Origin: an uncultured Pelagibacteraceae bacterium
Lineage (GTDB): Bacteria > Pseudomonadota > Alphaproteobacteria > Pelagibacterales > Pelagibacteraceae
Length of the DNA: 64,000 nucleotides
Assembly: GCA_902623305.1 (NCBI GenBank)
Contig: CACNTB010000001.1
Span: forward strand, 1-64,000
Reading direction: 5' to 3'
The position numbers were made by a program, and so were the translations under genes. The notes under the pieces were generated by a model. The model was not told where the DNA came from. It saw nothing but the letters and a program-made list of their open reading frames with translations, and did no database searches. How positions within the stretch are numbered: the first letter of the stretch is position 1; the number at the start of each line of letters is the position of its first letter. Below are positions 47,305 to 64,000 of the stretch, in pieces.

Positions 47305-47305
47305 T

Positions 47306-47848: not shown

Positions 47849-47849
47849 T

Positions 47850-49332: not shown

Positions 49333-50346
49333 TTAAAAAGTAATCGTCTCAAACTTTTTAGTCTTAAGAGATTTTCTCGCTATTTCGGCTAAAATTAGAG
49401 ATTTTCTACCATCATCAAAGTTAGCTAGAGGTTTAGAATTTTTTTTACAAATCTTTACTAAATCATTTAGTTGAATTTTGTAGGCTTCAGAATATCGTTC
49501 AATAAAAAAATTTTTAAATTGAGTTTTGTTACCTGTTGAATTTTTTGAATACAAAACTGTTTCCAAGTCTCTTTGATTATCTGAAATAATCATGCCTTTA
49601 GAACCAAAAAGTTCAATTCTTTGGTCATATCCAAAACTACAATGCCTAGAATTAGTAATAATACATTGCACTCCTTTTTTAGTTTTCATAACTACAGTAG
49701 CTAAGTCTAAATCATTTATTTTTTTTAGTTTTGTATCTGAAAAACGTTGCCCGGTAGCAAATATGGATACAAATTCATCCTTTCCAGTATAAAATCTTGC
49801 TAAATCAAAATCATGAATCATCATATCCTTAAATATGCCTCCAGATGTTTTTAAATAATTTATGGGTGGAGGCTCAGGATCTCTACTAGTGATAATTATT
49901 TTTTCCAATTTACCAATTTTTCCTTTGAGTAAATTATGATTTAAAGAATTATGAGCTGGGTCGTATCTTCTATTAAATCCAATTTGAATTTTTGGGTTAT
50001 ATTTCGAAATTCTTTTTTTGCACTTATTAATTTTATTTAAATCAAGGTCCAAAGGTTTTTCACAAAACACAACCTTTTTATTTATAACCGCCTCCTCAAT
50101 AAATTTTAAATGTGTATTTGTGCTCGACGCGATAAATATACATTCAATATTTTTATCTTTAAATGCAATTTTTGGATTTTGAATACCAATAGAGTTATAT
50201 TTTTTAGATAGATATCTTGTTAATTTTTGATCTTTGTCAAAAATATATTTCAGATTAAATTCCTTATGATTTATTAAGTTGCTAGCATGCATTTGGCCAA
50301 TTCTGCCAAGTCCAAATAGCGCAATATTAATTATATTTTTACCCAT
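49333..50346 (-). CDS. iolG: Myo-inositol 2-dehydrogenase-like oxidoreductase (IolG)
   Basis: 337 residues, the IolG length. The N-terminal Rossmann GLGRIGQMHA, then the E-K-P-L-D-L-D motif and G-F-N-R-R-Y-D-P, are typical. M-I-H-D-F-D-L-A-R-F near residue 185 contains the catalytic His/Asp and matches inositol 2-dehydrogenases. It oxidises cyclitols or related sugars at a ring hydroxyl with NAD. It follows another Gfo/Idh gene (overlap 16 nt) on the minus strand, and IolE is divergent from that gene. The exact substrate could differ; other IolG-like enzymes act on scyllo-inositol or sugar alcohols. Confidence 0.7.
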   Translation of the reverse strand: MGKNIINIALFGLGRIGQMHASNLINHKEFNLKYIFDKDQKLTRYLSKKYNSIGIQNPKIAFKDKNIECIFIASSTNTHLKFIEEAVINKKVVFCEKPLDLDLNKINKCKKRISKYNPKIQIGFNRRYDPAHNSLNHNLLKGKIGKLEKIIITSRDPEPPPINYLKTSGGIFKDMMIHDFDLARFYTGKDEFVSIFATGQRFSDTKLKKINDLDLATVVMKTKKGVQCIITNSRHCSFGYDQRIELFGSKGMIISDNQRDLETVLYSKNSTGNKTQFKNFFIERYSEAYKIQLNDLVKICKKNSKPLANFDDGRKSLILAEIARKSLKTKKFETITF

Positions 50347-51464
50347 CTTTTACTTCTTGAGGAAATTTTACACGCATTAATAAACTTTGCTGTTTCTAAG
50401 CCTTCATCTTCATTTGGATAAAAGTATCTTTTTTTTGTTTTATTTTTTAAAGAATCTGCAAACTCTTTATAAATATTAGCAAAAGCATCAAGATAGCCTT
50501 CTGGATGACCAAATTTTACTCTAGAGAATTGCTTTGAAAATTCTGAATTATGAAATCCTCTTTCTAATAATTTTACAGCACCTTTTTCTGGATTTAATTT
50601 AAGATAATTGGGATCATTTTGTACCCATTCCAAGCTTCCTTTTGAACCAAATACTCTAATTCTTAAACCATAAACACCACCCTTAGCCATTACACTTGTC
50701 CAAAACATTCCTTTTGCACCATTGTTAAAATTAATCATTACTTGCGCATTATCATCCATTTTAATCTTTTTTGATATTTGTTTTATATCTGCAAAAACTC
50801 TTTGTCCTTTTAAACCCGAAATATAAGAGGCTAAATGGTACGCATGAGTTCCGATTTCATTTAATACTGCAGATGATCCTACTATCTTACTATCAATTTT
50901 CCATTTAAGTTTTTTTTTTGCATTTTTTGAGTTAATTTTCGTTCCATCAGACCAATCTTGAATATATTCAACATTTACATACTTAACTTTACCAATCTTA
51001 CCTTTTTCAACTAATTTTTTTGCTTCTCTTACCATTGGATAAGCTGAGTAATTATGGGTTAGAGCGTATTTTATTTTTTTATTTGTTTTAATTTTACTAT
51101 ATAATTTTTTAGCTTGCTTGAGATTTCCAGCAAATGGTTTGTCGGAAATTATATGTACATTTTTTTCTATAAATTTTTCAGCTATAATTTGATGACTTGA
51201 AGGCGGTGTCATAATTGTGACTACCTTTATTCCATCTTTCCTTTTGAACTCTTTGTTAGCCATTTCAATATAATTTGAGTAACATCTATCAGCAGATATA
51301 CCCAAACTTTTTCCAAAGTTTTTAGATAATTTTTCATTTCTCGAAAATACTCCTGCAACTATTTCGTATTTATCATCAAATCTTGCAGAAATTCTATGAA
51401 CATGACCAATCCAAGATTTAGGACCTCCTCCAACAATACCTAAGGATAATTTATTTGTTTTCAT
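50331..51464 (-). CDS. Gfo/Idh/MocA family oxidoreductase (copy 1)
   Basis: 377 residues from ATG 51464. The frame opens 77 codons earlier but that part is antisense to the divergent IolE gene. It has G-I-V-G-G-G-P at the NAD site, I-S-D-K-P-F-A, L-T-H-N-Y-S-A-Y-P-M-V-R and D-D-N-A-Q. The C-terminal G-H-P-E-G-Y-L-D-A-F-A-N-I-Y is also present. It is clearly paralogous to the gene at 61715 (same motifs in order). These enzymes typically oxidise or reduce sugars or inositols. It overlaps iolG (49333) by 16 nt and is divergent from the IolE-like gene, with only 40 nt between starts. Confidence 0.8.
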   Translation of the reverse strand: MKTNKLSLGIVGGGPKSWIGHVHRISARFDDKYEIVAGVFSRNEKLSKNFGKSLGISADRCYSNYIEMANKEFKRKDGIKVVTIMTPPSSHQIIAEKFIEKNVHIISDKPFAGNLKQAKKLYSKIKTNKKIKYALTHNYSAYPMVREAKKLVEKGKIGKVKYVNVEYIQDWSDGTKINSKNAKKKLKWKIDSKIVGSSAVLNEIGTHAYHLASYISGLKGQRVFADIKQISKKIKMDDNAQVMINFNNGAKGMFWTSVMAKGGVYGLRIRVFGSKGSLEWVQNDPNYLKLNPEKGAVKLLERGFHNSEFSKQFSRVKFGHPEGYLDAFANIYKEFADSLKNKTKKRYFYPNEDEGLETAKFINACKISSRSKRWVKI

Positions 51465-51504
51465 TGATTGTTTGTTTTTATATATCATAACAAAAAAATA
51501 TATT

Positions 51505-52404
51505 ATGTCAGTAAATTTAGGAATAGCACCTATAGCATGGAGCAATGATGATATGCCTGAGCTTGGTGGTGATACACCTCTTGAGCAATGTCTTTCAGAA
51601 GCTAGTGAAGCTGGATTTTCAGGGATTGAATCTGGAGGAAAGTTTCCAAAAAAATCAAAAGAATTAATTCCCTTGTTAGATAAATATAATCTCAAATTAT
51701 GTTCGGGATGGTATGGAGCAAATTTAAGAATAAATTCAGTAAAAAAAGAAATAGAATTAATTCAAGGTCAATTAAAACTTTTTCAAGATTGTAACGCACC
51801 ATGTATTGTATTTGCAGAGGTTTCTGAGTCTATAGCAGGTGATCCAAAAAGACCTCTATCAACTAGACCAAAATTGACTAATGAAGAATGGATCAATTAT
51901 TGTAAAAAAATTTCTGAAATTGGAAAATACCTCGAAGACCAAGGTATGCCATTAGCTTACCATCATCATATGGGGACAGTTATTGAGACACAACAAGATA
52001 CCGAAAGACTTTTAGAAAATACTTCTGACCAGGTTAAATTAATTCTAGACACTGGTCATATGCTTTTTGCTGGTGGCGATTCTATTGAAGTAGCAAATAA
52101 TTTTAAAGAAAGAATTATTCATGTTCATTGCAAAGACATGAGAAAAAATGTTTTAGAAAAGTCATTGAAAGATGATTTTAGTTTCCGACAAGCTTTTCTA
52201 GAAGGAGCTTTTACAGTCCCAGGCGATGGATTTATTAATTATGAACCGCTATTAACTCTTCTGAAAAAAAATGATTACAATGGTTGGCTTGTAGTTGAGG
52301 CAGAACAAGACCCAGCAAAAGCAAACCCTTTAGAATATGCTAAAATAGGACATAAATATTTATCAAACGTCTGTAAAAAAATTGATTTAGATATTAATTT
52401 ATAG
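51505..52404 (+). CDS. iolE: Inosose dehydratase-like TIM-barrel protein (IolE type)
   Basis: 299 residues from ATG 51505. A longer frame from 51472 has a hydrophobic start not expected for the family. AP-endonuclease-2/xylose-isomerase-like barrel: G-I-A-P-I-A-W at the start, S-T-R-P-K-L-T near residue 117, A-Y-H-H-H-M-G-T near 151 and L-D-T-G-H-M near 182. H-V-H-C-K-D and a C-terminal V-V-E-A-E-Q (metal-binding Glu) complete the barrel. IolE dehydrates 2-keto-myo-inositol. It converges with the hydroxyacid dehydrogenase, overlapping by 6 nt. It is divergent from a Gfo/Idh gene, making a dehydrogenase plus dehydratase pair. Confidence 0.72.
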   Translation: MSVNLGIAPIAWSNDDMPELGGDTPLEQCLSEASEAGFSGIESGGKFPKKSKELIPLLDKYNLKLCSGWYGANLRINSVKKEIELIQGQLKLFQDCNAPCIVFAEVSESIAGDPKRPLSTRPKLTNEEWINYCKKISEIGKYLEDQGMPLAYHHHMGTVIETQQDTERLLENTSDQVKLILDTGHMLFAGGDSIEVANNFKERIIHVHCKDMRKNVLEKSLKDDFSFRQAFLEGAFTVPGDGFINYEPLLTLLKKNDYNGWLVVEAEQDPAKANPLEYAKIGHKYLSNVCKKIDLDINL

Positions 52405-53364
52405 TTTTACAATTTTTGATTTATCTAATTTGTTATCAAAAAAATCAATAATATTTTGAGCTGTCTCTTTTCCCATTCTTGACATACATTCTTCTGTAAA
52501 AGCAGCAGTATGTGGACTTAAAAATACTTTATTATTTTTTAGTAAAGGATTATTTGATTCAGGTGGCTCAATCTCAAATACATCTAAACCAGCTCCAAAA
52601 ATTAAATTTTCATTTAAGGCTCTATCTAGATCAATTTCATTTATCACTCCACCTCTTGCGGCATTAATTATAATACAATTTTTTTTCATATTTTTGAGTA
52701 AATCATAATTGATAATATTCTTTGTTTTCGCATTAAGTGGGACATGAAGAGATATAGCATCCATATTTTTTGAGGATTGTTCTAAACTGTCAATTTTAAT
52801 ACCCCCGTGTTTTTCAATTATTTCTTTAGATACAAATGGATCATAAACAAAAACTTTCATTTCAAATCCATGACATCTTTTTATTAAAGCTTGTCCAATA
52901 CGACCAAATCCAGCAATCAATATATTTTTGTTCCATAATTCAACTGTTTTAGGCAATTTATTTCGATCATCGAATTTACCACTTTTAACAGTTTCATCGT
53001 ACATATTCCCTTTTTTAGAAATATTTAGCAGCATAAACATTACATGTTCAGCTACTGCTACTGCATTTGCAGTTGCTGTGATCGCAAGAGTTATATTATT
53101 TTTTTTAGTGCTCTCTAAGTCTATATTGTCATAACCAACACCATGTCTTGAAATAATTTTTAATTTAGTTGAACCTTCTATTACTTCACTAGTAAGTTTT
53201 GCAGTCCTTATTGAAATACCATCACAATCCTTTATCTTGGATTTTAAAAATTCATTATCTGTATTATCTACTATTTCAAATTCATAATTAGAATTATCTT
53301 CTAATAATTTTATACCAGCATTGTGAATAGGCTGAACAATTAAAATTTTTTTTTTACTACTCAT
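52399..53364 (-). CDS. NAD-dependent 2-hydroxyacid dehydrogenase (SerA-like)
   Basis: 321 residues. D-isomer-specific 2-hydroxyacid dehydrogenase fold: S-R-H-G-V-G-Y-D-N-I-D near residue 75, G-F-G-R-I-G-Q-A near 150 and N-A-A-R-G-G-V-I-N-E near 234. The catalytic H-T-A-A-F pair near 290 is also present. It lacks the ACT regulatory domain of serine-pathway SerA. It might reduce a keto acid such as hydroxypyruvate or 2-keto-aldonate in the surrounding sugar pathway, or act as a D-3-phosphoglycerate dehydrogenase. It converges with the IolE-like gene. Confidence 0.8.
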   Translation of the reverse strand: MSSKKKILIVQPIHNAGIKLLEDNSNYEFEIVDNTDNEFLKSKIKDCDGISIRTAKLTSEVIEGSTKLKIISRHGVGYDNIDLESTKKNNITLAITATANAVAVAEHVMFMLLNISKKGNMYDETVKSGKFDDRNKLPKTVELWNKNILIAGFGRIGQALIKRCHGFEMKVFVYDPFVSKEIIEKHGGIKIDSLEQSSKNMDAISLHVPLNAKTKNIINYDLLKNMKKNCIIINAARGGVINEIDLDRALNENLIFGAGLDVFEIEPPESNNPLLKNNKVFLSPHTAAFTEECMSRMGKETAQNIIDFFDNKLDKSKIVKL

Positions 53365-53423
53365 ATTTAAGTTTAAATAAGGACTTTCTAATACGAAAAT
53401 TTATTAAAAGTGTAAATTACTTT

Positions 53424-54416
53424 TTACATACCCCATCGCATAGCTGCAGTATGCACAGGTGCATCCCAATTTTTTAAAATTTCCTCATCACATTTTAGGA
53501 GTGTTATTGATGCTCCCTGCATTTCAAGTGATGTACAATAATTTCCAACTAAACTTCTTGTGATTTCAATTCCTTTAGATTTTAAAATTTCACAAGCATC
53601 ATCGTATACTAAATATAATTCAGTAAGAGGAGTTCCGCCCATACCATTTATAAATAGAAGCGTCTTTTCATTTTTTTCTGGTTTTAAATCATCAAGTATA
53701 GCTTCCAACATATTATTTACTATTGTTTTTGATGGTTGAATTTTTTCTCTCTTTCTACCAGGTTCTCCGTGTATACCTACTCCAAATTCCATTTCATCAT
53801 TTCCAATATCAAAAGTAGGTTTGCCTGCAGCAGGAACTGTGCAACTAGTAAAAGCAACACCCATAGTTCCAGAGTTTTTGTTTACTTTTTCACCAAGTTT
53901 TTTACATTCGTCTAACGAACCTCCATTCTCAGCTAGTGATCCAACAATCTTTTCGACCAAAACTGTTGCAGCTACACCTCTTCTACCAGTTGTGAACGTA
54001 GAGTCTTCAACAGCTACATCATCGTTAGTAATGATACTATCATTTTTACCTGAGTACATTTCTGCACCCATTTGAAAATTCATAATATCCCCAGAATAAT
54101 TTTTAACTATGAACAAAACACCAGCTCCACTATCCACATGTTCAGCAGCAGCTTGCATTTGATCTGGAGTAGGTGCTGAAAAAACAAAACCTGGACATGC
54201 TGCATCTAGCATTCCATGACCAACAAAACCACCGTGCATCGGTTCATGACCACTTCCTCCGCCTGAAATTAAAGATACTTTTCCTTCTTTAGTTTTTGAT
54301 TTTCTAGAAATGAAGTTTGGTTCAAAATTTATCGTAATTATATCACTATGCGCCTTACCAAATCCATTAAGACTTTCTTTTAAAAAATCATCAACATTAT
54401 TTATAAACTTTTTCAT
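53424..54416 (-). CDS. dhaK: Dihydroxyacetone kinase subunit DhaK
   Basis: 330 residues. The DhaK domain shows L-I-S-G-G-G-S-G-H-E-P-M-H-G-G-F-V-G near residue 47 and G-V-L-F-I-V-K-N-Y-S-G-D. The I-H-G-E-P-G motif with the substrate-binding His lies near 220. It binds dihydroxyacetone (or a related ketose) covalently by a hemiaminal. DhaL is directly upstream in the same operon, 8 nt away, with TAGGAGG before this ATG. No dhaM is present, so either an ATP-dependent DhaKL or PTS phosphate from elsewhere is needed. Confidence 0.9.
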   Translation of the reverse strand: MKKFINNVDDFLKESLNGFGKAHSDIITINFEPNFISRKSKTKEGKVSLISGGGSGHEPMHGGFVGHGMLDAACPGFVFSAPTPDQMQAAAEHVDSGAGVLFIVKNYSGDIMNFQMGAEMYSGKNDSIITNDDVAVEDSTFTTGRRGVAATVLVEKIVGSLAENGGSLDECKKLGEKVNKNSGTMGVAFTSCTVPAAGKPTFDIGNDEMEFGVGIHGEPGRKREKIQPSKTIVNNMLEAILDDLKPEKNEKTLLFINGMGGTPLTELYLVYDDACEILKSKGIEITRSLVGNYCTSLEMQGASITLLKCDEEILKNWDAPVHTAAMRWGM

Positions 54417-54424
54417 ATTTCCTC

Positions 54425-55054
54425 CTATTTATTAATTAGTGATTTGCATATTGAATCGATTATAAGTTGTGATGAACGGGCTCCTGGATCTATATGGCCT
54501 TTGGCGCGTTCGCCTAAAAATGAAGCTCTACCTTTGGTAGCAAGCATATCTTTTGTTCCTAACATTCTATCTTCAGCAATTTTTATTATCTCACTTAATC
54601 CTTCTTTCACATCCTTATTACCACTTTTTAATTCACTAAGTTTTTCTGATACTGGAATTAAAACATCCATCATTGTTTTTTCTCCAACATCAGCTTTTCC
54701 TCTTTCCCTCATTGCATTAATTCCCGATATAACCATCTCACATGCTTTTTTAAAATCTATATCTTTATCTAGATCTGGTGTTTTAGCCATAGACATAAAG
54801 AAAGTTCCAAACAAAGCTCCAGAAGAGCCACCAATACCTGACAAGACTTTCATAGCAATCATATTTAAACCTTTTTGCAAAGGTAGGTTTTTAATATCAT
54901 TTTCAAGCTCAACTACTAACTTAAGACCTCTTTGCACATTAAATATATGATCTCCATCTCCAATATTTTGATCTAGTGCCTCAATTTCTGCTGCATTTTC
55001 ATCAATAACTATTTGAATATTTTTTGCTTGAGAAATTAAAAAATTAACGCTCAT
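54425..55054 (-). CDS. dhaL: Dihydroxyacetone kinase subunit DhaL
   Basis: 209 residues from ATG 55054; the frame is open to 55078 but would lie within the ABC ATPase gene. The three-Asp nucleotide/Mg motif D-x-x-x-G-D-G-D-H is near residue 33, and S-G-S/G-S-G-A-L-F-G and the C-terminal D-P-G-A-R-S fit the family. DhaL phosphorylates the ketone held by DhaK. It overlaps the upstream ATPase gene by 11 nt, placing DhaLK in the ABC importer operon. This strongly links the importer to a three- or four-carbon ketose or to its precursors. Confidence 0.9.
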   Translation of the reverse strand: MSVNFLISQAKNIQIVIDENAAEIEALDQNIGDGDHIFNVQRGLKLVVELENDIKNLPLQKGLNMIAMKVLSGIGGSSGALFGTFFMSMAKTPDLDKDIDFKKACEMVISGINAMRERGKADVGEKTMMDVLIPVSEKLSELKSGNKDVKEGLSEIIKIAEDRMLGTKDMLATKGRASFLGERAKGHIDPGARSSQLIIDSICKSLINK

Positions 55055-56054
55055 GTATCCTTTGGTCTCTGTTATCAAATTTTAAAACTTTATTCGTATT
55101 AATGTCAAAATTAATTTTTTCATTAATTGATGACTTATAGCTACCCTGAATTGATGCTAGTACTTCATTATCTTGAAAATTAATAGCTACCACAGTCTCT
55201 GAACCTAAATTTTCTATAGAAATAACCCTTCCTTCGTATGGTCCATCACCTAACTCTATATTTTCTGGTCTAAGTCCAATTTTTGTTATGTTGTTATCTA
55301 GTTTAAATAAAGAACCAGGTAAAATATTTATTTTTGGTGACCCCAATCTTTGGGATACATAAATTGAATTTGGATTTTCATAAATTTCTTCAGGAGTTCC
55401 AATTTGAACAATTTTGCCTTCTTTTAAAACTCCAATTTTATCTGCTAATGTTGTTGCTTCAGCCTGATCATGTGTAACATACAATATAGTAGCATTTAGG
55501 TTTAATTGAATATTTTTTAATTCAACTCTAAGAGTTTCTCTTAGTTTAGCATCTAATGAGGATAGTGGCTCATCCATTAGATAAATATTTGGTTCGCGAA
55601 CTAGAGCTCTGCCAATAGCTACCCTTTGCATTTCTCCACCAGAAAGTTCAGTTGCTTTATTTTTTAATTTGCTTGTAATTTTGAGCATTTCAGCAATTTT
55701 CTCTACTTTATTTTTTATTTCTTCCTCAGGAAGTTTTCTCATTGGAGACCTTAAAGGGAAAGCAAGATTTTCATAAACAGTATAATGAGGGTAAAGAGAG
55801 TATTGTTGAAAAACAAAAGACACATCTCTTGAGGCAGGTTGATCATGAGTTATATTTTCATCATTAAACAATACATCTCCAGAATCAATTTTTTCTAAAC
55901 CAGCTATACATCTAAGTGTTGTAGTTTTTCCGGCACCAGATGGACCCAGTAACACAAAAAATTGACCATCTTCAATTGTAAGATTTATATCCTCCAAAGC
56001 TTTAATTTTTTTGTTATAAGTTTTAAATAATTTTTTTAATTCTACTTTTGCCAT
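55044..56054 (-). CDS. CUT1 sugar ABC transporter ATPase (second of two)
   Basis: 336 residues. Walker A is GPSGAGKTT, the signature is LSGGEMQRVAIGRAL and Walker B is NIYLMDEPLSSLDAK. A TOBE regulatory domain follows at about 240-330. It is an MalK/UgpC-like ATPase but pairs with a second, different ATPase (next gene), as seen in glycerol-type GlpS/GlpT importers. It overlaps dhaL by 11 nt and starts at the last base of the preceding ATPase. It likely forms a heterodimeric ATPase. Confidence 0.85.
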   Translation of the reverse strand: MAKVELKKLFKTYNKKIKALEDINLTIEDGQFFVLLGPSGAGKTTTLRCIAGLEKIDSGDVLFNDENITHDQPASRDVSFVFQQYSLYPHYTVYENLAFPLRSPMRKLPEEEIKNKVEKIAEMLKITSKLKNKATELSGGEMQRVAIGRALVREPNIYLMDEPLSSLDAKLRETLRVELKNIQLNLNATILYVTHDQAEATTLADKIGVLKEGKIVQIGTPEEIYENPNSIYVSQRLGSPKINILPGSLFKLDNNITKIGLRPENIELGDGPYEGRVISIENLGSETVVAINFQDNEVLASIQGSYKSSINEKINFDINTNKVLKFDNRDQRIHER

Positions 56055-57136
56055 TATTTTATAAAGTCGCTGTTTAAAGATTTATCTGTCTCACCGTCAA
56101 AAATAATAATATTATTATTTGAAGGTTTAACCTGAACATTTTCATTCAATTTAACGTCAACAGAAATGTCTGTTTTAACTTTAATTTCACCTAAAATTGT
56201 TTTAACTGTAATTATTTTTCTTGATCCTAAATACTCTACTCCAAAAACTGAACCTTTTAGACCTTCATTATTATTTAGAGTTAAATTTTCTGGACGTATA
56301 CCAAAGAAATTTTTACTTCCCTTTGATTCCTCAAGTTGTTTGGGAATATCAAATTTTGCACCTTCGATATTTATAAATGATTGATCTTTAGAAATTCCCT
56401 CATTAACTTCAAAAAAGTTCATACCTGGAGATCCTATAAATGAGGCTACAAATTTAGTTTTAGGTTTATTGTAAATAATATTAGGCTCATCAGCTTGTAA
56501 TATTTCACCACCATCCATAACTGCAATTCGATCAGCTAATGACATTGCTTCTAACTGATCATGAGTTACATAAACTGTAGTTGCTCCAATATCTAAATGA
56601 AGTTTTTTTAATTCTAAACACATTAATTCTCTAAATTCAGCATCCAATGTTCCCAATGGCTCGTCCATTAAAAATGCTTTTGGTCTTCTAACTAGCGCTC
56701 TACCCAAAGCTACCCGTTGTCTGTCTCCACCCGAAAGAGAGGAAATGTTAGAATTTAAGATGTGATCAATTCTTAAAAGTTTTGCTGCTTCTTCAACTCG
56801 ATTTTTGATATCATTTTTTTTATAACCCTGCATTTTGAGAGGAAATGATAAGTTGTTTCTTACATTCATGTGCGGGTAGAGGGCAAACAATTGAAAAACA
56901 AAAGCAATATCTCTTTCTGATGCTCTCAACATTCCAACCTCTTCATCTCCAAGAAATATCTCACCAGAAGTAGGTAATTCTAATCCTGCAATCATTCGAA
57001 GTGTTGTAGTCTTTCCACAACCAGATGGTCCAAGTAAAACAAAGAACTCTTTATCATTAATCGTTAAATTAGAATTTTTAACTGCAGTAAAATCACCAAA
57101 TGATTTTTGTAAATTTACTATTTTAATTTGAGACAT
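56054..57136 (-). CDS. CUT1 sugar ABC transporter ATPase (first of two)
   Basis: 360 residues. Walker A is GPSGCGKTT, the signature is LSGGDRQRVALGRAL and Walker B is KAFLMDEPLGTLDAE. A C-terminal TOBE/MalK-like region follows. The signature carries D instead of E after SGG. Two unlike ATPase subunits in one CUT1 operon is a pattern of the glycerol (GlpSTPQV) group, so the importer may serve a polyol or small sugar. The small membrane gene is 1 nt upstream. Confidence 0.85.
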   Translation of the reverse strand: MSQIKIVNLQKSFGDFTAVKNSNLTINDKEFFVLLGPSGCGKTTTLRMIAGLELPTSGEIFLGDEEVGMLRASERDIAFVFQLFALYPHMNVRNNLSFPLKMQGYKKNDIKNRVEEAAKLLRIDHILNSNISSLSGGDRQRVALGRALVRRPKAFLMDEPLGTLDAEFRELMCLELKKLHLDIGATTVYVTHDQLEAMSLADRIAVMDGGEILQADEPNIIYNKPKTKFVASFIGSPGMNFFEVNEGISKDQSFINIEGAKFDIPKQLEESKGSKNFFGIRPENLTLNNNEGLKGSVFGVEYLGSRKIITVKTILGEIKVKTDISVDVKLNENVQVKPSNNNIIIFDGETDKSLNSDFIK

Positions 57137-57137
57137 A

Positions 57138-57329
57138 TTAATCCGGAAAGTGGCTTGTGATTATGAAACCTATAGTTCCTACTAAAATTACAATAAAAGA
57201 ATAAGTAAACATCCACATTGCAAATGGTTGTAATAACATGAAAACTCCAATTAAAATTAGTATCGTCGATAAGTTTTCCCAGTAAACTCTTCTAAATATT
57301 TTTCGCATTAATGACTTTTCTTCCTGCAT
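57138..57329 (-). CDS. Small two-helix membrane protein in the ABC operon
   Basis: 63 residues from ATG 57329 (overlapping the permease stop, TAATG). A longer frame from 57443 lies within the permease gene. A basic N-terminal segment is followed by two hydrophobic helices (about 20-38 and 40-58), ending T-S-H-F-P-D. Its place between the second permease and the ATPases parallels the small GlpU/DUF2160-type protein of rhizobial glycerol importer operons, though I cannot claim sequence homology. Function unknown; likely an accessory subunit. Confidence 0.6.
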   Translation of the reverse strand: MQEEKSLMRKIFRRVYWENLSTILILIGVFMLLQPFAMWMFTYSFIVILVGTIGFIITSHFPD

Positions 57330-58273
57330 TATTTTCTTACCGCTCCAAATGTGATACCTCTTAAAAGATGTTTTCTTAAAATTATTGTAAAAATCATAAC
57401 AGGTAATAGAAATAAAGTTGTTCCTGCTCCAATTGCTGGCCAATCAAGACCACCTTCACCAATGATTGTAGGAATAAATGGTGGGGCTGTTTGGGCATTG
57501 AATTGAGTAAGCAAAACAGCAAAAGCGTATTCATTCCATGAAAAAATCATACAAAAGATTGCAGTTGCCGCTATACCAGTCATTGCTTGTGGAAGAACAA
57601 CTTTAAAGAAAGCTTGAAGTCTAGAATATCCATCGATCATAGCTGCTTCTTCATATTCTTTAGGAATTTCATCCATAAATCCTTTTAATAACCATACTGC
57701 TAAACTTAAGTTTACAACGGTATACAATATGATCATTCCAAGGTGAGTATCCCCAAGACCTAATTTTCTGTACATAATAAATATAGGAACAGCCACTGCT
57801 ATTGGGGGAAACATCCTGGTCGAAAGAATAAAAAATAATAAATCATCTTTTAAAGGAACTCTAAACCTTGAAAATGCATATGCAGCCAATGCTCCTAAAA
57901 ACACAGATGCAAAAGTTGAACCAAATCCAATTATCATAGAATTTGAGTATCTACCCAAAAATTTAGATGGCCCTGTTATAACCATCTCTCTGCTTCTAAC
58001 TAGTTCTTCATACCAATTTTCTGGGGGAGGTAATGAATCAAGATATTCTTGTGATTGTCTTGACCTATTAGTAAATAAGTTAACATATCCCTCTAGTGAT
58101 GGTTCAAACAAAACTTCGGGCGGATATGAAATAGCACTATCAACATTTTTAAAACTTGTCATTACCATCCAAGATATTGGTATCAAAGTAATTACAGCGT
58201 AAACTATGATAATAGCAGCAGCCATTTTTTTTGAAAAAGACGAAGGTTCCAAATATGATCTAGAAGTATCCAT
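57329..58273 (-). CDS. CUT1 sugar ABC permease (MalG-type)
   Basis: 314 residues. Six hydrophobic helices and the inner-membrane EAA loop, here E-E-A-A-M-I-D-G-Y-S-R-L-Q-A-F, fit the MalG-type permease. A long periplasmic loop (about 35-115) carries an unusual Q-E-Y-L-D-S-L-P-P-P-E insertion. It forms a heterodimer with the permease of the adjacent gene. It starts at the last base of that gene and is followed by the small membrane gene (overlap 1 nt). Confidence 0.88.
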   Translation of the reverse strand: MDTSRSYLEPSSFSKKMAAAIIIVYAVITLIPISWMVMTSFKNVDSAISYPPEVLFEPSLEGYVNLFTNRSRQSQEYLDSLPPPENWYEELVRSREMVITGPSKFLGRYSNSMIIGFGSTFASVFLGALAAYAFSRFRVPLKDDLLFFILSTRMFPPIAVAVPIFIMYRKLGLGDTHLGMIILYTVVNLSLAVWLLKGFMDEIPKEYEEAAMIDGYSRLQAFFKVVLPQAMTGIAATAIFCMIFSWNEYAFAVLLTQFNAQTAPPFIPTIIGEGGLDWPAIGAGTTLFLLPVMIFTIILRKHLLRGITFGAVRK

Positions 58274-59172
58274 CAGCGTTCCTTTATTTTATTCATTACT
58301 TTTACGTAAACATTTCCGAAACCAAATATGGTAACAAAAAGAATAACAGCAAATGCTGAGCTGTAACCTGTTTTCCATTTTTCAAACGCTTCTCTTTTTA
58401 AGTTAATTGAGGCAAGCTCTGTAGCAGATCCGGGACCACCAGAGGTGAGCTCAACAACCATGTCAAACATTTTAAAATTCTCAATCCCTCTAAAAAGCAG
58501 AGCTAATAATAAAAAAGGTAAAACGGAGGGCAAAGTAATGTAAATAAATTGCTGCCATTTACTTGCTCTATCAACCTCTGCAGCTTCATATAAATAATTT
58601 GGAACAGATCTTAGACCTGCTAAGCAAATTAACATTGTAAATGGTGTCCACATCCATGTATCAACAATGACAATAGCCCATGGTGCAAGTGTACTTGAAC
58701 CAATCATATCAAAGCTTCCTAAATCATAGAAAAAATTAACTACGTAATTAAATAGACCTACTTGAGGGTTATAAAGATAAGTCCAAAATACACCTACAAC
58801 TGCAGGTGATAACATCATGGGCAAAACAATTAATGTAGTTAGTAGTTCATTACCTTTAAATTTCCTGTTTAGAAGCAAAGCTAAACCCAATCCTATAATT
58901 GCTTGAAGTAACAAAGTCCAAAACATAAAGCTTGCTGTAACTTGCATTTTTTCCCATATGGCTTCTTTGTTAAGAACTTTAATATAATTTTTTAAACCAA
59001 CAAATTGAGGTTCTCTTCCAATTTTATTTGCATAAAAATTTGTAAAAGACATTTTGATTGCATAGACCAATGGATAAATATTTATAGCCAGTAGCAGAAG
59101 TACAGTTGGTCCAATAAAAAGCCAACCTACGGCTTTGTCAGAAAGTCCTTTGAATTTTTTTTTTACGCTCAT
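58273..59172 (-). CDS. CUT1 sugar ABC permease (MalF-type)
   Basis: 299 residues with about six hydrophobic helices. The EAA loop Y-E-A-A-E-V-D-R-A-S-K-W-Q-Q-F is near residue 198, and P-T-V/L-L-L-L-A-I-N-I-Y-P-L near the N-terminus is typical of MalF/UgpA-like permeases. It pairs with the following permease. A stem-loop with a T-tract lies 14 nt before its ATG, separating it from the binding-protein gene. Confidence 0.88.
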   Translation of the reverse strand: MSVKKKFKGLSDKAVGWLFIGPTVLLLLAINIYPLVYAIKMSFTNFYANKIGREPQFVGLKNYIKVLNKEAIWEKMQVTASFMFWTLLLQAIIGLGLALLLNRKFKGNELLTTLIVLPMMLSPAVVGVFWTYLYNPQVGLFNYVVNFFYDLGSFDMIGSSTLAPWAIVIVDTWMWTPFTMLICLAGLRSVPNYLYEAAEVDRASKWQQFIYITLPSVLPFLLLALLFRGIENFKMFDMVVELTSGGPGSATELASINLKREAFEKWKTGYSSAFAVILFVTIFGFGNVYVKVMNKIKER

Positions 59173-59185
59173 ATGAATTTTTTAT

Positions 59186-59212
59186 AAAAAAAGGGGAGGC
59201 GTAACCCCCCCT
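59186..59212 (-). terminator. Terminator-like stem-loop between binding-protein and permease genes
   Basis: On the minus strand an 8-bp stem (AGGGGGGG with CCTCCCCT, one G:U) closes a 5-nt loop and is followed by seven Ts (59192-59186). It lies between the binding-protein stop (59240) and the permease ATG (59172). Such partial terminators keep more mRNA for the binding protein than for the membrane subunits. Confidence 0.75.
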
Positions 59213-59239
59213 AATTTTTAATTTCTTTAAGTATTAATG

Positions 59240-60544
59240 TTAAAGTTTTCCGTCTGCTTCGAATACTTCAACCCACTCTGCGATAATTTTATCTAGAGCT
59301 TCTTTAGCAGTTCCTTTTCCATTAACAACATAGTCATGAATTGCTTCTTGCATAGGAAGCATTAACTCTACGAAAGTTGGTTCTTGCCAAAAATCTTTGA
59401 CAATTCCCATTGAGTCCAAGAATCCTTGTGCATACACAGTAGATGTTGGAAATGACGGTGAATTCAAAACATCATTATGACATGAGTATCCACCTAGATC
59501 CCACCATTTTTGTTGTACATCTGGTCTTGCAAACCACTTAATGTATTCAAGAGCAAGATCTTGTTTGTCTGAATATTTAACAACAGATATCCCTTGTCCA
59601 CCTAACGTTGCAGCTGCAACATTTTGTTTTGGATTTGCAAAGAAGCCACTGACTCTTCCGTCACTGTCTTCTTTTGAAACACCCGGCCAAAAGGCATACC
59701 AATTCATTTGAAATGCAACTTGTCCTGATTTGTAAGCATCTAAGTTTGCAACCATGTAAGCATCAGAGTGTCCTGGAGGTGCGCAATCTTCATATAACTT
59801 TCTGTAAAATTCAACTGCTTCTACAGCTTGTGGTGAATTGAAATATCCTTCCATATCGTATGGCTTGTTAGGATTTTCATATTCCATACCCCATGCATAC
59901 ATAGCAGCTGTAACACCCATTGTTATACCTTCTGATCCACGCTCTGTGTTAATTGCAGCCCCATATCTTTTTTGACCATCAATTTCTCTTCCTTGGAAGA
60001 ACTTACACATATCATGTAATTGATTCCAATTTGCAGGAACTCCAAGATCATATCCATGTTTCTTTTTAAACTCAGATCTAAGTTCTGGTCTATCAAACCA
60101 GTCTTTTCTGTAAGCCCATGCTAAGGCATCTCCCATAGCTGGTAATGCATAGTAGTTTTTACTACCTTTAGGCCAAGTTGAATAAGCATAAACTGTAGCT
60201 GGTGAGAAATCACTCATTGAAATTCCTTCTTTATCAAAGAAGTCATTTAATTTTACGTAATGCCCATAAACAGCTCCAGCACCAATCCATTGTGAGTCAC
60301 CAATTAATAAGTCAAATGTTTTACCTTTGTTGTTAAGTTCATTTAACATACGATCAGCAAAATTTGGCCACGGTACAAACTCAAAGTTAACTTCTATTCC
60401 AGTTTCAGCAGTAAATTCTTTAGTTAACTCTTGTAAAGCATTAGCTGGATCCCAAGCGGCCCATCCTAATGTTATAGACTTAGCGTTTGAATTTACAGAG
60501 AATGAAAATAGAGAAACAAACAATAAAATCATTATTTTTTTCAT
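59240..60544 (-). CDS. CUT1 carbohydrate ABC substrate-binding protein
   Basis: 434 residues. A signal peptide covers about 1-21 (MKKIMILLFVSLFSF..., cut after NAK-like end). The mature protein has the SBP_bac_1 fold: F-T-A-E-T-G-I-E-V-N-F, then D-L-L-I-G-D-S-Q-W, and many Trp/Tyr typical of carbohydrate sites (W-P-N-F, W-A-Y-R-K-D-W-F, Q-M-N-W-Y-A-F-W). Leader GAGGAG is near the ATG. It probably captures a sugar or polyol in the periplasm. It is the first gene of the importer operon, with the stem-loop after it. Substrate unknown. Confidence 0.85.
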   Translation of the reverse strand: MKKIMILLFVSLFSFSVNSNAKSITLGWAAWDPANALQELTKEFTAETGIEVNFEFVPWPNFADRMLNELNNKGKTFDLLIGDSQWIGAGAVYGHYVKLNDFFDKEGISMSDFSPATVYAYSTWPKGSKNYYALPAMGDALAWAYRKDWFDRPELRSEFKKKHGYDLGVPANWNQLHDMCKFFQGREIDGQKRYGAAINTERGSEGITMGVTAAMYAWGMEYENPNKPYDMEGYFNSPQAVEAVEFYRKLYEDCAPPGHSDAYMVANLDAYKSGQVAFQMNWYAFWPGVSKEDSDGRVSGFFANPKQNVAAATLGGQGISVVKYSDKQDLALEYIKWFARPDVQQKWWDLGGYSCHNDVLNSPSFPTSTVYAQGFLDSMGIVKDFWQEPTFVELMLPMQEAIHDYVVNGKGTAKEALDKIIAEWVEVFEADGKL

Positions 60545-60594
60545 TTTATCTCCTCTTAGTTTATTTTTCTTAAGAATAGTCTATCCAAGATGAG

Positions 60595-60623
60595 TTGTGG
60601 CTGCTAGTATTTTCTTATATAAA
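60595..60623 (+). promoter_or_regulatory. Sigma70-like promoter for the isomerase gene
   Basis: TTGTGG (60595-60600), a 17-nt spacer and TATAAA (60618-60623) form a good sigma70-type promoter 37 nt before the ATG at 60660, with GAGGGAGGG as ribosome-binding site. The TTATATAA core (60615-60622) is nearly symmetrical, so the same spot may serve as the -10 of a divergent promoter for the ABC operon, though no clear -35 is seen on the minus strand. Confidence 0.45.
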
Positions 60624-60659
60624 ATTAATTGTTGAGAAACTTAAAGAGAGGGAGGGATT

Positions 60660-61715
60660 ATGAATAATATAAAAGGTCCTGCAATTTTTCTAGCACAATT
60701 TGTAGGTGAAGATGCACCGTTTAACTCTTTAGATAGCATTTGTAAGTGGGCATCTTCTTTAGGTTACAAAGGTGTACAAATTCCAAGTTGGGATGGTAGA
60801 TTAATAGATTTAAAGAAAGCTTCTGAAAGTAAAGATTATTGTGATGAAATCAAAGGCATAACAAAAAAACATAATATCGAGATAACTGAACTATCAACAC
60901 ATCTTCAAGGACAATTGGTAGCAGTACATCCAGCATACGACACTGCATTTGATGGATTTGCCGTACCTGAAGTAAGGGGAAATCCAAAAGCAAGACAAGA
61001 GTGGGCAGTAAATCAATTGATGATGGCAGCTAAGGCCTCTAAAAATCTTGGACTATATAGGCATGTTACTTTTTCTGGAGCACTAGCTTGGCCTTATGTT
61101 TATCCTTGGCCACAAAGACCTGAAGGACTAATTGAAAACGCATTTAATGAACTTTCTAATCGATGGAAACCAATTCTTGATCAATTCGATCAAAATGGAG
61201 TTGATCTTTGTTATGAAATACATCCAGGTGAGGATCTTCACGATGGTATCACATTTGAAATTTTTTTAGATAAAGTTGGTAATCATAAAAGATGTAATAT
61301 GCTTTATGATCCTAGTCATTATGTTTTACAGAATTTAGATTACTTGGCTCATATAGATATTTATCATGAAAAAATAAAAATGTTTCATGTTAAAGATGCA
61401 GAGTTAAATCCTACTGGAAAACAAGGGGTGTATGGTGGTTTCCAATCTTGGGTTAACAGAGCAGGTCGATTTAGATCTCTTGGCGATGGACAGGTAGATT
61501 TTAAATCAATCTTTTCAAAGTTTACCACTTATGGTTATGATGGTTGGGCAGTTCTAGAATGGGAGTGTTGTCTTAAACATCCAGAAGATGGAGCAAGAGA
61601 AGGTGCTGAATTTATCAAAAATCATATTATTAACACCACAGAAAAAGCATTTGATGATTTTGCAGGAAGTGGTGCTGATATTGAAGCAAATAAAAAAATG
61701 TTAGGTATAAATTAG
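60660..61715 (+). CDS. Sugar isomerase/epimerase-like TIM-barrel protein
   Basis: 351 residues of the AP-endonuclease-2 (xylose isomerase-like) barrel. Metal-binding residues are seen in L-C-Y-E-I-H-P-G-E-D, M-L-Y-D-P-S-H-Y, F-H-V-K-D and V-L-E-W-E-C. The sequence is longer than IolE and not closely like it. Members isomerise, epimerise, dehydrate or cleave 3-keto glycosides. A GAGGGAGGG ribosome-binding site is 4 nt from the ATG. The Gfo/Idh gene starts in its stop codon (TAGTG), so the pair is co-translated. Confidence 0.75.
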   Translation: MNNIKGPAIFLAQFVGEDAPFNSLDSICKWASSLGYKGVQIPSWDGRLIDLKKASESKDYCDEIKGITKKHNIEITELSTHLQGQLVAVHPAYDTAFDGFAVPEVRGNPKARQEWAVNQLMMAAKASKNLGLYRHVTFSGALAWPYVYPWPQRPEGLIENAFNELSNRWKPILDQFDQNGVDLCYEIHPGEDLHDGITFEIFLDKVGNHKRCNMLYDPSHYVLQNLDYLAHIDIYHEKIKMFHVKDAELNPTGKQGVYGGFQSWVNRAGRFRSLGDGQVDFKSIFSKFTTYGYDGWAVLEWECCLKHPEDGAREGAEFIKNHIINTTEKAFDDFAGSGADIEANKKMLGIN

Positions 61716-62869
61716 TGCAAAGAAAAATCCGTATTGGAATGGTTGGCGGAGGAGAAGGCGCTTTTATTGGAGGTGTTCACAGAATAGCCTTAAGACTTGA
61801 TGGTCATTACGAATTAGTAGCAGGATGTTTTTCATCTAATTTTGACAACTCAAAAGAAACTGGAAGAAAACTTGGATTGTCTGAAAAACGTATCTATGAA
61901 ACTTATCAAGAAATGGCTGAAAAAGAGTCTACACGTTCCGATGGGATAGATGTTGTTTCTATAGTAACTCCTAATCATCTTCATGTGCCAGTAGCAAAAA
62001 TTTTTGCAGATAAAGGTATTCACATTATTTGTGATAAGCCTCTTGCTTTTTCAAGTGAAGAAGCAAATTCTCTTAAAAAAATCATAGAAAATAAAAAGAT
62101 AATTTTTGCCTTAACACATAATTATACTGGATATCCAATGGTAAGACATGCAAGATCTATGGTTAAAGAAGGTGATCTTGGAAAAATAAGAGTTATACAA
62201 GCAGAATACCCTCAAGATTGGTTAACTACAAAAGCTGAGGATACTGGTTTAAAACAAGCTGAGTGGAGAACTGATCCTAAAAGATCTGGAGGAGGAGGAT
62301 GCATAGGAGACATTGGAACTCATGCATTTAATCTTATTAGATTTATAACCGAGTTAGAATTGGATGAGCTATCAGCTGACATTCATACTTTTGTGAAGGG
62401 TCGAAAACTAGATGACAATGCACAAATCATGCTTAGATTTAAAGAAGGTGCAAAAGGTGCGATATGGTCTAGTCAAGTTGCAGTTGGTAATGAAAATAAT
62501 CTTAAAATCAGAGTATATGGTGACAATGGAGGGTTAGAGTGGAAACAAGAAGATCCAAATTATTTGTATTATACAAAATTTGGAAAACCTACCGAAAAAA
62601 TAACAAGAGGTAGTGGCAGTGCAAATAAAGAAGCTAACGATGTTACAAGAATTCCACCAGGTCATCCTGAGGGATATTTGGAAGGTTTTGCAAATATTTA
62701 TACTGATGTTTCTAAAAGATTAAATGCTCAAATAAACAATGAAAAATATAACGAGCTAGATGACTGTTACCCAACTATTTACGATGGTATTGAAGGGATG
62801 AAGTTCATCGAAACTGTTTTAAAGTCTAGTAAAAATAATAGTAAATGGACTGAGTTTAATAAGCTTTAG
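61715..62869 (+). CDS. Gfo/Idh/MocA family oxidoreductase (copy 2)
   Basis: 384 residues, starting at GTG overlapping the upstream stop. It shows G-M-V-G-G-G-E at the NAD site, I-C-D-K-P-L-A, L-T-H-N-Y-T-G-Y-P-M-V-R, D-I-G-T-H-A-F-N, D-D-N-A-Q and G-H-P-E-G-Y-L-E-G-F-A-N-I-Y. The same motifs occur in the copy at 50331, so these are paralogues. It probably oxidises a ring hydroxyl of a sugar or cyclitol. It overlaps the convergent aldolase by 14 nt. Confidence 0.82.
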   Translation: MQRKIRIGMVGGGEGAFIGGVHRIALRLDGHYELVAGCFSSNFDNSKETGRKLGLSEKRIYETYQEMAEKESTRSDGIDVVSIVTPNHLHVPVAKIFADKGIHIICDKPLAFSSEEANSLKKIIENKKIIFALTHNYTGYPMVRHARSMVKEGDLGKIRVIQAEYPQDWLTTKAEDTGLKQAEWRTDPKRSGGGGCIGDIGTHAFNLIRFITELELDELSADIHTFVKGRKLDDNAQIMLRFKEGAKGAIWSSQVAVGNENNLKIRVYGDNGGLEWKQEDPNYLYYTKFGKPTEKITRGSGSANKEANDVTRIPPGHPEGYLEGFANIYTDVSKRLNAQINNEKYNELDDCYPTIYDGIEGMKFIETVLKSSKNNSKWTEFNKL

Positions 62870-63647
62870 ACTCTTCTTTTTTTGAAGAACCTTTCATTTT
62901 ATCTACAACTGATTTAGCGCCTGCACTTAATGCTCTTTGATCAGCCCCAATAGTCACAAAATTGAAACCTTTATCTATCATTTTTTGTGCATACTCAGGT
63001 GTACCATTATGAATTCCAGCAAAAATATTATTCTTTTTTGCGTGTTCTAATATTCTTAGTATTTCTGAATAAGCTTTAGTACTTTCTGCTCTATCAAAGC
63101 CAGGCTCTTCTCCTATTGCTAAACTTAAATCAGCTGGTCCAATATATATTCCATCTACACCAGGAGTAGACATAATTTCATCTAATTTTTCTAAAGACTC
63201 TTTAGTTTCTATCATAGCTAATTTGAGCATTTCATCATTTGCATGTTTTGCATAATCTGAACCTCCATAGATTAATCCTCTAACAGGACCAAAACTTCTA
63301 TAACCACGAGGAGGGTACATACAAGCTTGAACAAATCTTTCTGCTTCTTGCTTATTACTCACCATTGGGCATATAATTCCATAACAACCTGCATCAAGAA
63401 TTTTCATTATTTGCCCTGGTTCATTCCAATTTACTCTAGCCAAAGGAGTTACTTCTGTTGAAGATATTGTTTGTAACATTGGAAGTGCATTATTGTAATC
63501 TACTAAGCCATGTTGCATATCTATTGTTAGAGAATCCCACCCTTGGTGAGCCATTACTTCTGCCGAAACAGTACTAGGTATTTGAAGCCAACCATTAATA
63601 ACAGGTTTCCCTGCTTTCATCATTTCTTTAACTTTATTTTTTCTCAT
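62856..63647 (-). CDS. HpcH/HpaI family aldolase
   Basis: 263 residues. The family shows G-x-W-L-Q-I-P-S near the start, D-M-Q-H-G near residue 43 and I-C-P-M-V near 95. An R-G-Y-R-S-F-G-P-V-R-G loop, the metal Glu in M-I-E-T-K-E-S and D-G-I-Y-I-G-P-A-D-L-S-L follow. Members cleave 2-keto-3-deoxy acids such as 4-hydroxy-2-oxoheptanedioate or 2-keto-3-deoxyglucarate to pyruvate plus an aldehyde. It starts 2 nt after the ALDH stop, so the aldolase and dehydrogenase are coupled. The substrate is not known. Confidence 0.82.
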   Translation of the reverse strand: MRKNKVKEMMKAGKPVINGWLQIPSTVSAEVMAHQGWDSLTIDMQHGLVDYNNALPMLQTISSTEVTPLARVNWNEPGQIMKILDAGCYGIICPMVSNKQEAERFVQACMYPPRGYRSFGPVRGLIYGGSDYAKHANDEMLKLAMIETKESLEKLDEIMSTPGVDGIYIGPADLSLAIGEEPGFDRAESTKAYSEILRILEHAKKNNIFAGIHNGTPEYAQKMIDKGFNFVTIGADQRALSAGAKSVVDKMKGSSKKEESKAY

Positions 63648-63649
63648 TT

Positions 63650-64000
63650 TTAGATTTTTAAACCCATGTGTGTATATTTCACATTTAGATAATCTTTTAT
63701 TGCGCCTGATCCACCTTCACGACCATAACCAGTTTGTTTTATTCCTCCAAATGGTGCCTCAGCAATTGCAACAACACCAGTATTAACTGCAACACAACCG
63801 GACTCTAATTTTTCAGATCCAATATGAGCTTTATCCATGGAGTTAGTATATAAATAACTACATAATCCTAAGTCATTATTATTTGCTCTTTCAATTACTT
63901 CATCAAAAGTTTTAAAAGTTAAAATTGGAACTAGTGGACCAAAAGGTTCTTCTTTCATGATTGTAAAATTATCTTTTACATCATCAAATACAGTTGGTTC
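63650..64000 (-). CDS. Semialdehyde dehydrogenase, 3' part (runs off edge)
   Basis: Only the C-terminal about 116 residues are present; the gene continues past 64000. The block E-P-T-V-F-D-D-V, then E-E-P-F-G-P-L-V-P, G-C-V-A-V-N and A-P-F-G-G-I-K-Q-T-G-Y-G-R-E-G match the C-terminus of succinate/alpha-ketoglutarate semialdehyde dehydrogenases (GabD group). It is upstream of the aldolase gene in the same operon. It probably oxidises an aldehyde product of the pathway. Confidence 0.8.
   Translation of the reverse strand, partial: EPTVFDDVKDNFTIMKEEPFGPLVPILTFKTFDEVIERANNNDLGLCSYLYTNSMDKAHIGSEKLESGCVAVNTGVVAIAEAPFGGIKQTGYGREGGSGAIKDYLNVKYTHMGLKI

Follow-up and report, generated by a model that had tools for sequence, protein, structure and literature searches.

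Canonical myo-inositol catabolism, of the Bacillus subtilis/Salmonella type, runs through IolG, IolE, and IolD to the IolD product 5-deoxy-D-glucuronate (HOOC-CH2-CHOH-CHOH-CHOH-CHO) and continues with IolB, IolC, IolJ, and IolA. The Thermotoga inositol pathway, with IolG, IolN, and IolO, shares the inositol dehydrogenase start and then departs from the Bacillus route. Here we analyse a stretch of 64,000 nucleotides (the window) at the start of a 202-kb contig (CACNTB010000001.1) from an uncultured bacterium of the Pelagibacteraceae (SAR11; assembly GCA_902623305.1; 1.01 Mb in 35 contigs, 78.5% complete), in which positions 49,333 to 64,000 carry inositol genes together with an importer and further catabolic genes. 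This region consists of two modules, an inositol module (module I) and a module with a CUT1 importer, DhaLK, a TIM-barrel protein, and a Gfo/Idh oxidoreductase (module G), rather than a single island. Our central result is that a SAR11 inositol cluster without iolB and iolC, carrying instead an aldehyde dehydrogenase (aldh), an HpcH/HpaI aldolase (hpch), and a hydroxyacid dehydrogenase (hadh), is systematic at the gene level, and this observation is solid. We give an even chance to the reading of module I as a variant myo-inositol pathway with a canonical upper part and a substituted, oxidative, kinase-free lower part.

Compared with the canonical system, the SAR11 genes share the IolG, IolE, and IolD equivalogs and, in 10 of 12 genomes tested, MmsA/IolA, and the split into three plus three carbons would be shared as well. 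In contrast, SAR11 has neither a KduI/IolB nor a passing IolC match in 247 genomes, and hpch, an SSADH-like aldh, and a D-2-hydroxyacid dehydrogenase are linked to the cluster instead. Unlike the Thermotoga pathway, IolE and IolD are present, and the IolO model reaches 27.5 bits (cut-off 300), in IolE itself. By gene context, the galactarate/glucarate pathway with its GarL-type aldolase resembles the proposed route in splitting a C6 2-oxo-diacid into two C3 products, a 2-oxoacid and a semialdehyde acid; however, no dehydratase is annotated in the iol-linked operons, the GarL cut-off is not reached, and the donor product would be hydroxypyruvate rather than pyruvate. The closest solved relative of hpch, SwHKA of Sphingomonas wittichii (PDB 6r62), shares the presumed catalytic residues, yet hpch stands a long branch apart, with His or Gln at the F210 position in iol-linked copies. 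In the open-licence literature, we found no description of 5-deoxyglucarate or of inositol catabolism with hydroxypyruvate and malonate semialdehyde, and no paper on SAR11 inositol catabolism by title. A survey of inositol clusters counted a cluster when at least three of iolB, iolC, iolD, and iolE occur within 10 kb, and attributed the lack of the fourth gene to incomplete sequence, faulty assembly, or frameshift (PMC9430895); this rule leaves out any cluster that has neither iolB nor iolC.

An inositol cluster without iolB and iolC

The genes of module I, with gfo2 among them, lie on both sides of module G, hadh1 and hpch being about 9.5 kb apart:

49333..50346, minus strand: iolG, myo-inositol 2-dehydrogenase (TIGR04380, 369.9 bits; cut-off 355)
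50331..51464, minus strand: gfo2, Gfo/Idh oxidoreductase of uncertain role (PF22725/PF01408; start corrected to 51464)
51505..52404, plus strand: iolE, 2-keto-myo-inositol dehydratase (TIGR04379, 409.1 bits; cut-off 290)
52399..53364, minus strand: hadh1, D-2-hydroxyacid dehydrogenase (PF02826/PF00389)
62856..63647, minus strand: hpch, HpcH/HpaI class II aldolase (PF03328)
63650..64000, minus strand: C-terminal part of aldh, SSADH-like aldehyde dehydrogenase (the gene runs on to contig position 65092)
65180-67027 of the contig, 1.2 kb past the window end: iolD (TIGR04377, 797 bits; cut-off 715)

By family identity, the upper part of the myo-inositol route (IolG, IolE, and IolD) is canonical. 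Since iolD sits just outside the window, an inositol that is converted as far as 5-deoxyglucuronate is very likely the substrate. A first-pass annotation of this DNA had remarked, correctly, that the window lacks iolB, iolC, and iolD, and had suggested that IolG and IolE act in a different route. That suggestion survives in that the route is non-canonical, linked to an HpcH/HpaI aldolase, and without a passing match for iolB or iolC; it does not survive for IolD, which is present close by. Likewise, the possibility that all iol genes lie just outside the window holds for iolD only, as the source genome yields no KduI/IolB family member and its best IolC score is 96.5 bits.

The absence of iolB and iolC is not a gap of a single draft, because a survey of 247 Pelagibacteraceae genomes, 102 of them at least 90% complete, gives the same picture. 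Whereas iolD exceeds its cut-off in 102 of the 247, the KduI/IolB Pfam family is found in none of them, nor in any of the 102 more complete genomes, with 6 of 14 control genomes positive. None of the 247 reaches the IolC cut-off of 300, the highest score being 118 bits, whereas 3 of 14 controls do; 230 of the 247 contain sub-cut-off matches, which are PfkB-family proteins.

In place of these genes, iolD is coupled to the aldolase. Orthologues of hpch (E at most 1e-60) occur in 108 of the 247 genomes and in 100 of the 102 with a full-length iolD (Fisher p ~1e-56, uncorrected for kinship). Both genes share one contig in 96 genomes, their starts at most 3,374 bases apart; in four they are on different contigs, with a contig-end placement clear for G069 only. 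All 20 SAR11 iolD loci that we read (12-20 kb each) keep hpch, aldh, iolD, and gfo4, a further Gfo/Idh gene, contiguous, with aldh and iolD divergent and no kinase gene in this core. The hydroxyacid dehydrogenase hadh1 is coupled to iolD yet not exclusive to it: in 197 genomes searched, it is present in 73 of 75 iolD-positive ones, and 13 of the 20 iolD loci include a copy with at least 55% identity.

Some SAR11 loci hold further genes beside hpch (e.g., a glycosyltransferase-like gene, by eye), which we disregarded because they are not kept together with the core. Locus L112 (2175-6819) has five genes between hadh1 and hpch, among them phytanoyl-CoA dioxygenase-like and ketopantoate reductase-like ones (by eye), and L114 and L116 have unknown genes of similar size at this position. 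Right of iolD, the contig continues with gfo4, a second hydroxyacid dehydrogenase (hadh2), a ribose-type CUT2 importer, a FucU-like gene, and a ribokinase (TIGR02152, 315 bits; cut-off 299.65), followed, by eye or by distant likeness, by pdxA, a tricarboxylate transporter, an SDR, an ROK gene, and a second CUT1 system. In the SAR11 locus L008, gfo4, hadh2, the CUT2 importer, and the ribokinase are not seen, and the arrangement looks like a deletion.

A proposed oxidative, kinase-free lower pathway

On the observed gene content and linkage, we base a sequence of four steps whose substrates and products are predictions. By enzyme type, the coupled genes stand for oxidation of an aldehyde, oxidation of an alpha-hydroxyacid, and aldol cleavage of a 2-oxoacid, and the first three steps take them in this sequence. 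First, the SSADH-like aldh would oxidise the C1 aldehyde of 5-deoxyglucuronate to 2,3,4-trihydroxyadipate (5-deoxyglucarate). Second, the D-2-hydroxyacid dehydrogenase, or a Gfo/Idh enzyme, would oxidise the alpha-hydroxyl, giving 3,4-dihydroxy-2-oxoadipate. Third, the HpcH/HpaI aldolase would cleave between C3 and C4 to release hydroxypyruvate and malonate semialdehyde. Fourth, an unlinked MmsA/IolA would convert malonate semialdehyde to acetyl-CoA, and hydroxypyruvate would be reduced or transaminated. Together these steps would replace IolB, IolC, and IolJ, spend no ATP, and deliver an oxidised, unphosphorylated triose. Of the single schemes considered, this predicted chemistry fits the three coupled types of enzyme best.

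The individual enzymes are consistent with these roles to differing degrees. The protein hadh1 belongs to a superfamily comprising PGDH, glyoxylate reductase, and 2-ketogluconate reductase; its nearest PDB chains are a PGDH and a glyoxylate reductase, with a probable 2-ketogluconate reductase among its PDB relatives. At the alpha-carbon, the configuration equals that of gluconate C2, as would suit a D-2-hydroxyacid dehydrogenase similar to 2-ketogluconate reductase. Besides its use in the second step, hadh1 could reduce hydroxypyruvate, which might alternatively be transaminated to serine. MmsA exceeds its cut-off in 8 of 10 genomes with iolD and in 2 of 2 without, is not linked to iolD, and has a match over the cut-off, cut at a contig end, in the source genome.

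For hpch, the nearest solved relative is the hydroxyketoacid aldolase SwHKA (206 bits). The presumed catalytic His, Arg, Glu, and Asp are found in every one of the 40 aligned rows, two of which are the window protein. At the position of SwHKA F210, most rows have His, three SAR11 copies have Gln, and two unlinked relatives have Asn and Phe, respectively. We discarded F210 as a marker of hydroxypyruvate use, as the garD-linked relatives share His with most iol-linked copies. Some of the closest unlinked relatives of hpch adjoin galactarate dehydratase genes, a C6 2-oxo-diacid context like that of the proposed substrate. SwHKA was crystallised with hydroxypyruvate and accepts it as a substrate (PMC10099721).

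The aldolase might instead split unphosphorylated 2-deoxy-5-keto-gluconate into dihydroxyacetone and malonate semialdehyde, the same carbon split as in the canonical route, with an unrecognised isomerase standing in for IolB and with DhaLK, which lies in the window and exceeds its family cut-offs, phosphorylating the dihydroxyacetone. We consider this improbable. HpcH/HpaI enzymes take 2-oxoacid donors, the hydroxyacid dehydrogenase would be left without a role, and the required isomerase is not recognised in the conserved core. Moreover, dhaK and dhaL occur in none of the 20 SAR11 iolD loci, the rest of those genomes not having been searched for them, and in 21 of 28 full module G loci DhaLK accompanies the CUT1/TIM-barrel block without iolD, hpch, or aldh. 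The related proposal of the first-pass annotation, cleavage to pyruvate plus an aldehyde with phosphorylation of a triose by DhaLK, likewise seems to fit less well than kinase-free formation of hydroxypyruvate.

Occurrence outside SAR11

Outside SAR11, the association of hpch with iolD is scattered. A wider sample covered 385 alphaproteobacterial genomes, with five SAR11-family members among the listed rows. In 56 of the 385, iolD exceeds its cut-off; 33 of these also match the KduI family, G477 through a fragment interrupted by stops, and the other 23, two of them SAR11, do not. We examined 40 iolD stretches (L163-L202), of which 21 cover the 21 KduI-less genomes other than SAR11 and 19 were taken from 17 KduI-bearing genomes, and found hpch by iolD in three: L180, from a genome without KduI; L197, one of three iolD copies in a KduI-bearing genome; and L202, whose genome has KduI on another contig. 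A role of hpch as a general iolB replacement in Alphaproteobacteria is thus not supported, and other members of the class, including the source of L171 with iolD on a single 3.76-Mb contig, may have another IolB replacement or lower route.

A plasmid collection contains 64 records with an hpch relative (E at most 1e-50), 25 of them listed, and 14 regions were read. Seven (L206-L211, L214) carry iol genes together with aldh, hpch, and hadh, their hosts being Rhizobium leguminosarum Vaf-108, Paracoccus alcaliphilus, P. ferrooxidans, Jiella pelagia, and Shinella. Here, iolD matches in one piece in L206, L208, and L211; in L207, the iolD and aldh matches come in two pieces each; and L209, L210, and L214 have iolE and/or iolG only, alongside the trio. 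As for the other regions, L212 shows the aldh-hpch-hadh trio without iol genes in 14.7 kb, L203 and L204 have the hpch relative with galactarate dehydratase genes, and L205, L213, L215, and L216 show neither context (L215 is unannotated, with an aldehyde dehydrogenase match). The three loci with iolE and/or iolG only are Shinella plasmids that also carry CUT2 importers, and the annotated ones, L210 and L214, have an RpiR regulator and a phytanoyl-CoA dioxygenase gene near the trio. The gene content of the Shinella loci suggests that they serve a modified inositol.

The IolD tree (52 rows, 12 near-duplicate SAR11 rows having been dropped from 64; L207 left out for its split match; midpoint root for drawing only) has a 100/100 split that separates 29 rows, comprising 15 hpch-linked, 3 with an iolB-type match, and 11 with neither, from 23 rows with no hpch-linked member, 8 with an iolB-type match, and 15 with neither. 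The nearest sister rows of SAR11 (L189 and L190) have no hpch by iolD and have KduI elsewhere in the genome. In the hpch tree (28 rows, 12 near-duplicate SAR11 rows dropped from 40), the SAR11 copies form one group (100/99); a second group (97/99) holds the iol-linked plasmid copies together with L180, L197, L212, and L216; and the iol-linked L202 groups with garD-linked copies (90/95). There may have been more than one origin or transfer of the pairing between this kind of hpch and this kind of IolD; the trees contain long branches, and some of their support values are modest.

Several observations weigh against the proposed lower pathway. Scores fall short of several model cut-offs: hpch scores 175.9 against 368.8 for the HpaI model and 144.5 against 406.75 for GarL, and aldh scores 496 bits against 646 for the NCBIfam SSADH model. 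The His equivalent to F210 is also present in both garD-linked relatives, and use of hydroxypyruvate is not told apart from use of pyruvate. For the downstream steps, MmsA is not over its cut-off in G018 and G041, two of the 10 iolD genomes tested, and the GckA-type glycerate kinase (PF13660) is found in 0 of 12 genomes (4 of 14 controls positive), other glycerate kinases not having been searched for. The coupling itself has exceptions, since hpch was not found in two iolD-positive Pelagibacteraceae genomes and is present without a full-length iolD in eight, and hadh1 is present without it in 19 (two genomes in each group have a partial iolD); L008 (SAR11 single cell AG-422-J14) keeps hpch and aldh beside pdxA, without iolD nearby. 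Beyond SAR11, just 1 of the 21 KduI-less genomes has hpch by iolD (four of the 21 stretches are shorter than 5 kb), and SAR11 and the other hosts have different Gfo/Idh genes next to the operon.

The rarity of hpch among these KduI-less genomes bears on a further explanation, in which the canonical lower pathway persists with unrecognised, non-orthologous IolB and IolC (e.g., an unlinked PfkB kinase) and the trio serves a co-regulated aldarate or other substrate. With 20 of the 21 lacking hpch by iolD, another replacement may exist; the weak IolC matches among SAR11 PfkB proteins, including the ribokinase-like gene of this cluster, could supply a kinase, and related aldolases do occur in galactarate operons. 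We nevertheless regard this explanation as unlikely, if less so than the dihydroxyacetone route: the hpch-iolD link in 100 of 102 genomes speaks for a shared pathway, the iol-linked plasmid loci that come with annotation (L206, L207, L208, L210, L211, and L214) show no annotated aldarate dehydratase, and the best weak PfkB matches (G194 and G149) are in genomes without iolD over the cut-off.

The separable module G and implications for SAR11

Between the two parts of module I lie the genes of module G, the importer genes being assigned by eye and by conserved order across loci:

53424..54416, minus strand: dhaK, of the ATP-dependent dihydroxyacetone kinase DhaKL (TIGR02363, 461 bits; cut-off 406)
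54425..55054, minus strand: dhaL (TIGR02365, 189 bits; cut-off 138)
55044..56054, minus strand: CUT1 importer ATPase 1 (open reading frame; conserved gene order)
56054..57136, minus strand: CUT1 importer ATPase 2 (open reading frame; conserved gene order)
57138..57329, minus strand: small frame of about 63 amino acids with a hydrophobic stretch, between ATPase 2 and the permease (DNA read by eye)
57329..58273, minus strand: CUT1 permease (open reading frame; conserved gene order)
58273..59172, minus strand: CUT1 permease (open reading frame; conserved gene order)
59240..60544, minus strand: CUT1 solute-binding protein (open reading frame; distant sugar-binding PDB matches)
60660..61715, plus strand: TIM-barrel protein, relative of 2-hydroxy-3-keto-glucal hydratase (PDB 8ro4, 595 bits over 350 residues)
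61715..62869, plus strand: gfo3, Gfo/Idh oxidoreductase paired with the TIM barrel (Pfam match; conserved order)

The first-pass annotation had named the genes of the whole region at about these places, and they are confirmed, with IolG, IolE, DhaK, and DhaL over their cut-offs and the others by domain or order; the CUT1 importer that it named is likewise present, with two ATPases, two permeases, and a binding protein. The short divergent spacers that it described are found between gfo2 and iolE (40 bp), between the solute-binding protein and TIM-barrel genes (115 bp), and between aldh and iolD (87 bp, just outside the window). Consensus promoters are no commoner than in shuffled sequence (61 versus 69.5). 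A strong terminator-like hairpin (59190-59212, minus strand; nine pairs and a T run) lies between the binding-protein and permease genes, as expected if the CUT1 binding protein is made in excess. At the place of the small frame, module G-type importers of Ruegeria and Sinorhizobium have an annotated small gene. Directly left of the region (44101-48842) are moaA, moaC, moaE, and msrPQ-like genes (molybdenum cofactor and methionine sulfoxide reductase-like; by eye).

Gene order in relatives, a comparison that the first-pass annotation had proposed, supports the coherence of one part of its 15-kb island and divides the whole. A search with the TIM-barrel protein fetched 80 loci (flank up to 10 kb), the closest named ones (L007-L017) being Pelagibacteraceae single-cell genomes with 97-98% identity over the 351-amino-acid protein. 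The window's order of dhaK, dhaL, two ATPases, two permeases, binding protein, TIM barrel, and gfo3 recurs in 28 of the 80, all of them, by their titles, single cells or metagenome-assembled genomes of Pelagibacteraceae or uncultured Alphaproteobacteria. In 21 of the 28, module G is without iolD, hpch, or aldh; the remaining seven (L007-L012 and L014) have at least hpch, and six of them have iolD. Whereas hpch-aldh-iolD-gfo4 is kept in 20 of 20 iolD loci, DhaLK is in none of these and stands with the CUT1 block elsewhere; we accordingly rejected a single island with DhaLK in the inositol route. Related associations exist in Sinorhizobium, where a CUT1 importer is associated with dhaKLM, and in Ruegeria, where CUT1 and DhaK are associated with a sugar phosphate isomerase/epimerase and a Gfo/Idh gene.

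Module G most likely represents an uptake route for a glycoside or triose, because its TIM barrel matches 8ro4, whose hydration step belongs to non-hydrolytic deglycosylation; that its substrate is a glycerol glycoside is a guess. The original paper on this pathway reportedly concerns Agrobacterium. The likeness to the non-hydrolytic glucoside pathway, with its 3-keto-glycoside lyase and hydratase, concerns module G only and consists of a close TIM-barrel relative, paired with a Gfo/Idh gene, a matter of homology rather than activity; in contrast to that pathway, module G is linked to DhaLK and CUT1. A 3-keto-glucoside lyase gene was not recognised in module G, no model search having been aimed at it. 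The two Gfo/Idh enzymes gfo2 and gfo3 (42% identical to each other) score far under the levoglucosan dehydrogenase cut-off. We also rejected the TIM barrel as an IolB replacement, as its closest solved relative is the keto-glucal hydratase and it lies outside the inositol core of the 20 loci. In a published account, hydration of 2-hydroxy-3-keto-glucal is a step of non-hydrolytic deglycosylation via 3-keto-sugars (PMC13273386).

The proximity of the modules could mean that they serve one compound, an inositol glycoside, with CUT1 importing a glycosyl-inositol, the hydratase/Gfo pair stripping the sugar non-hydrolytically, and the iol genes using the inositol. The modules are near each other in the window and in eight fetched SAR11 loci (L007, L009-L014, and L019), and they meet outside SAR11 too: two Paracoccus plasmids (L208 and L211) carry a relative of the hydratase, 64% and 65% identical to the window's, in an iolE-iolD cluster, joined in L208 (P. 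alcaliphilus) by a gfo3 relative (47% identity). We rate a common substrate as a long shot, however, given that most full module G loci have no iolD, hpch, or aldh in their flanks, that dhaK and dhaL are missing from the iolD loci, and that the modules have separate importers, CUT1 in module G and CUT2 in module I.

SAR11 is among the most numerous bacterial groups in the sea, and its cells are auxotrophic for serine and glycine. For module I, we put at somewhat less than an even chance the broader proposal that about two fifths of the sampled SAR11, together with scattered Alphaproteobacteria, use an undescribed oxidative, kinase-free inositol route yielding hydroxypyruvate and malonate semialdehyde, in which SAR11 hydroxypyruvate may feed serine and glycine. 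If the predicted chemistry holds, inositol use in the ocean has been undercounted, and the textbook pathway has an alternative lower half without ATP expenditure. Six recombinant enzymes would then suffice to probe a new aldolase reaction as well as a metabolic connection between inositol and hydroxypyruvate.

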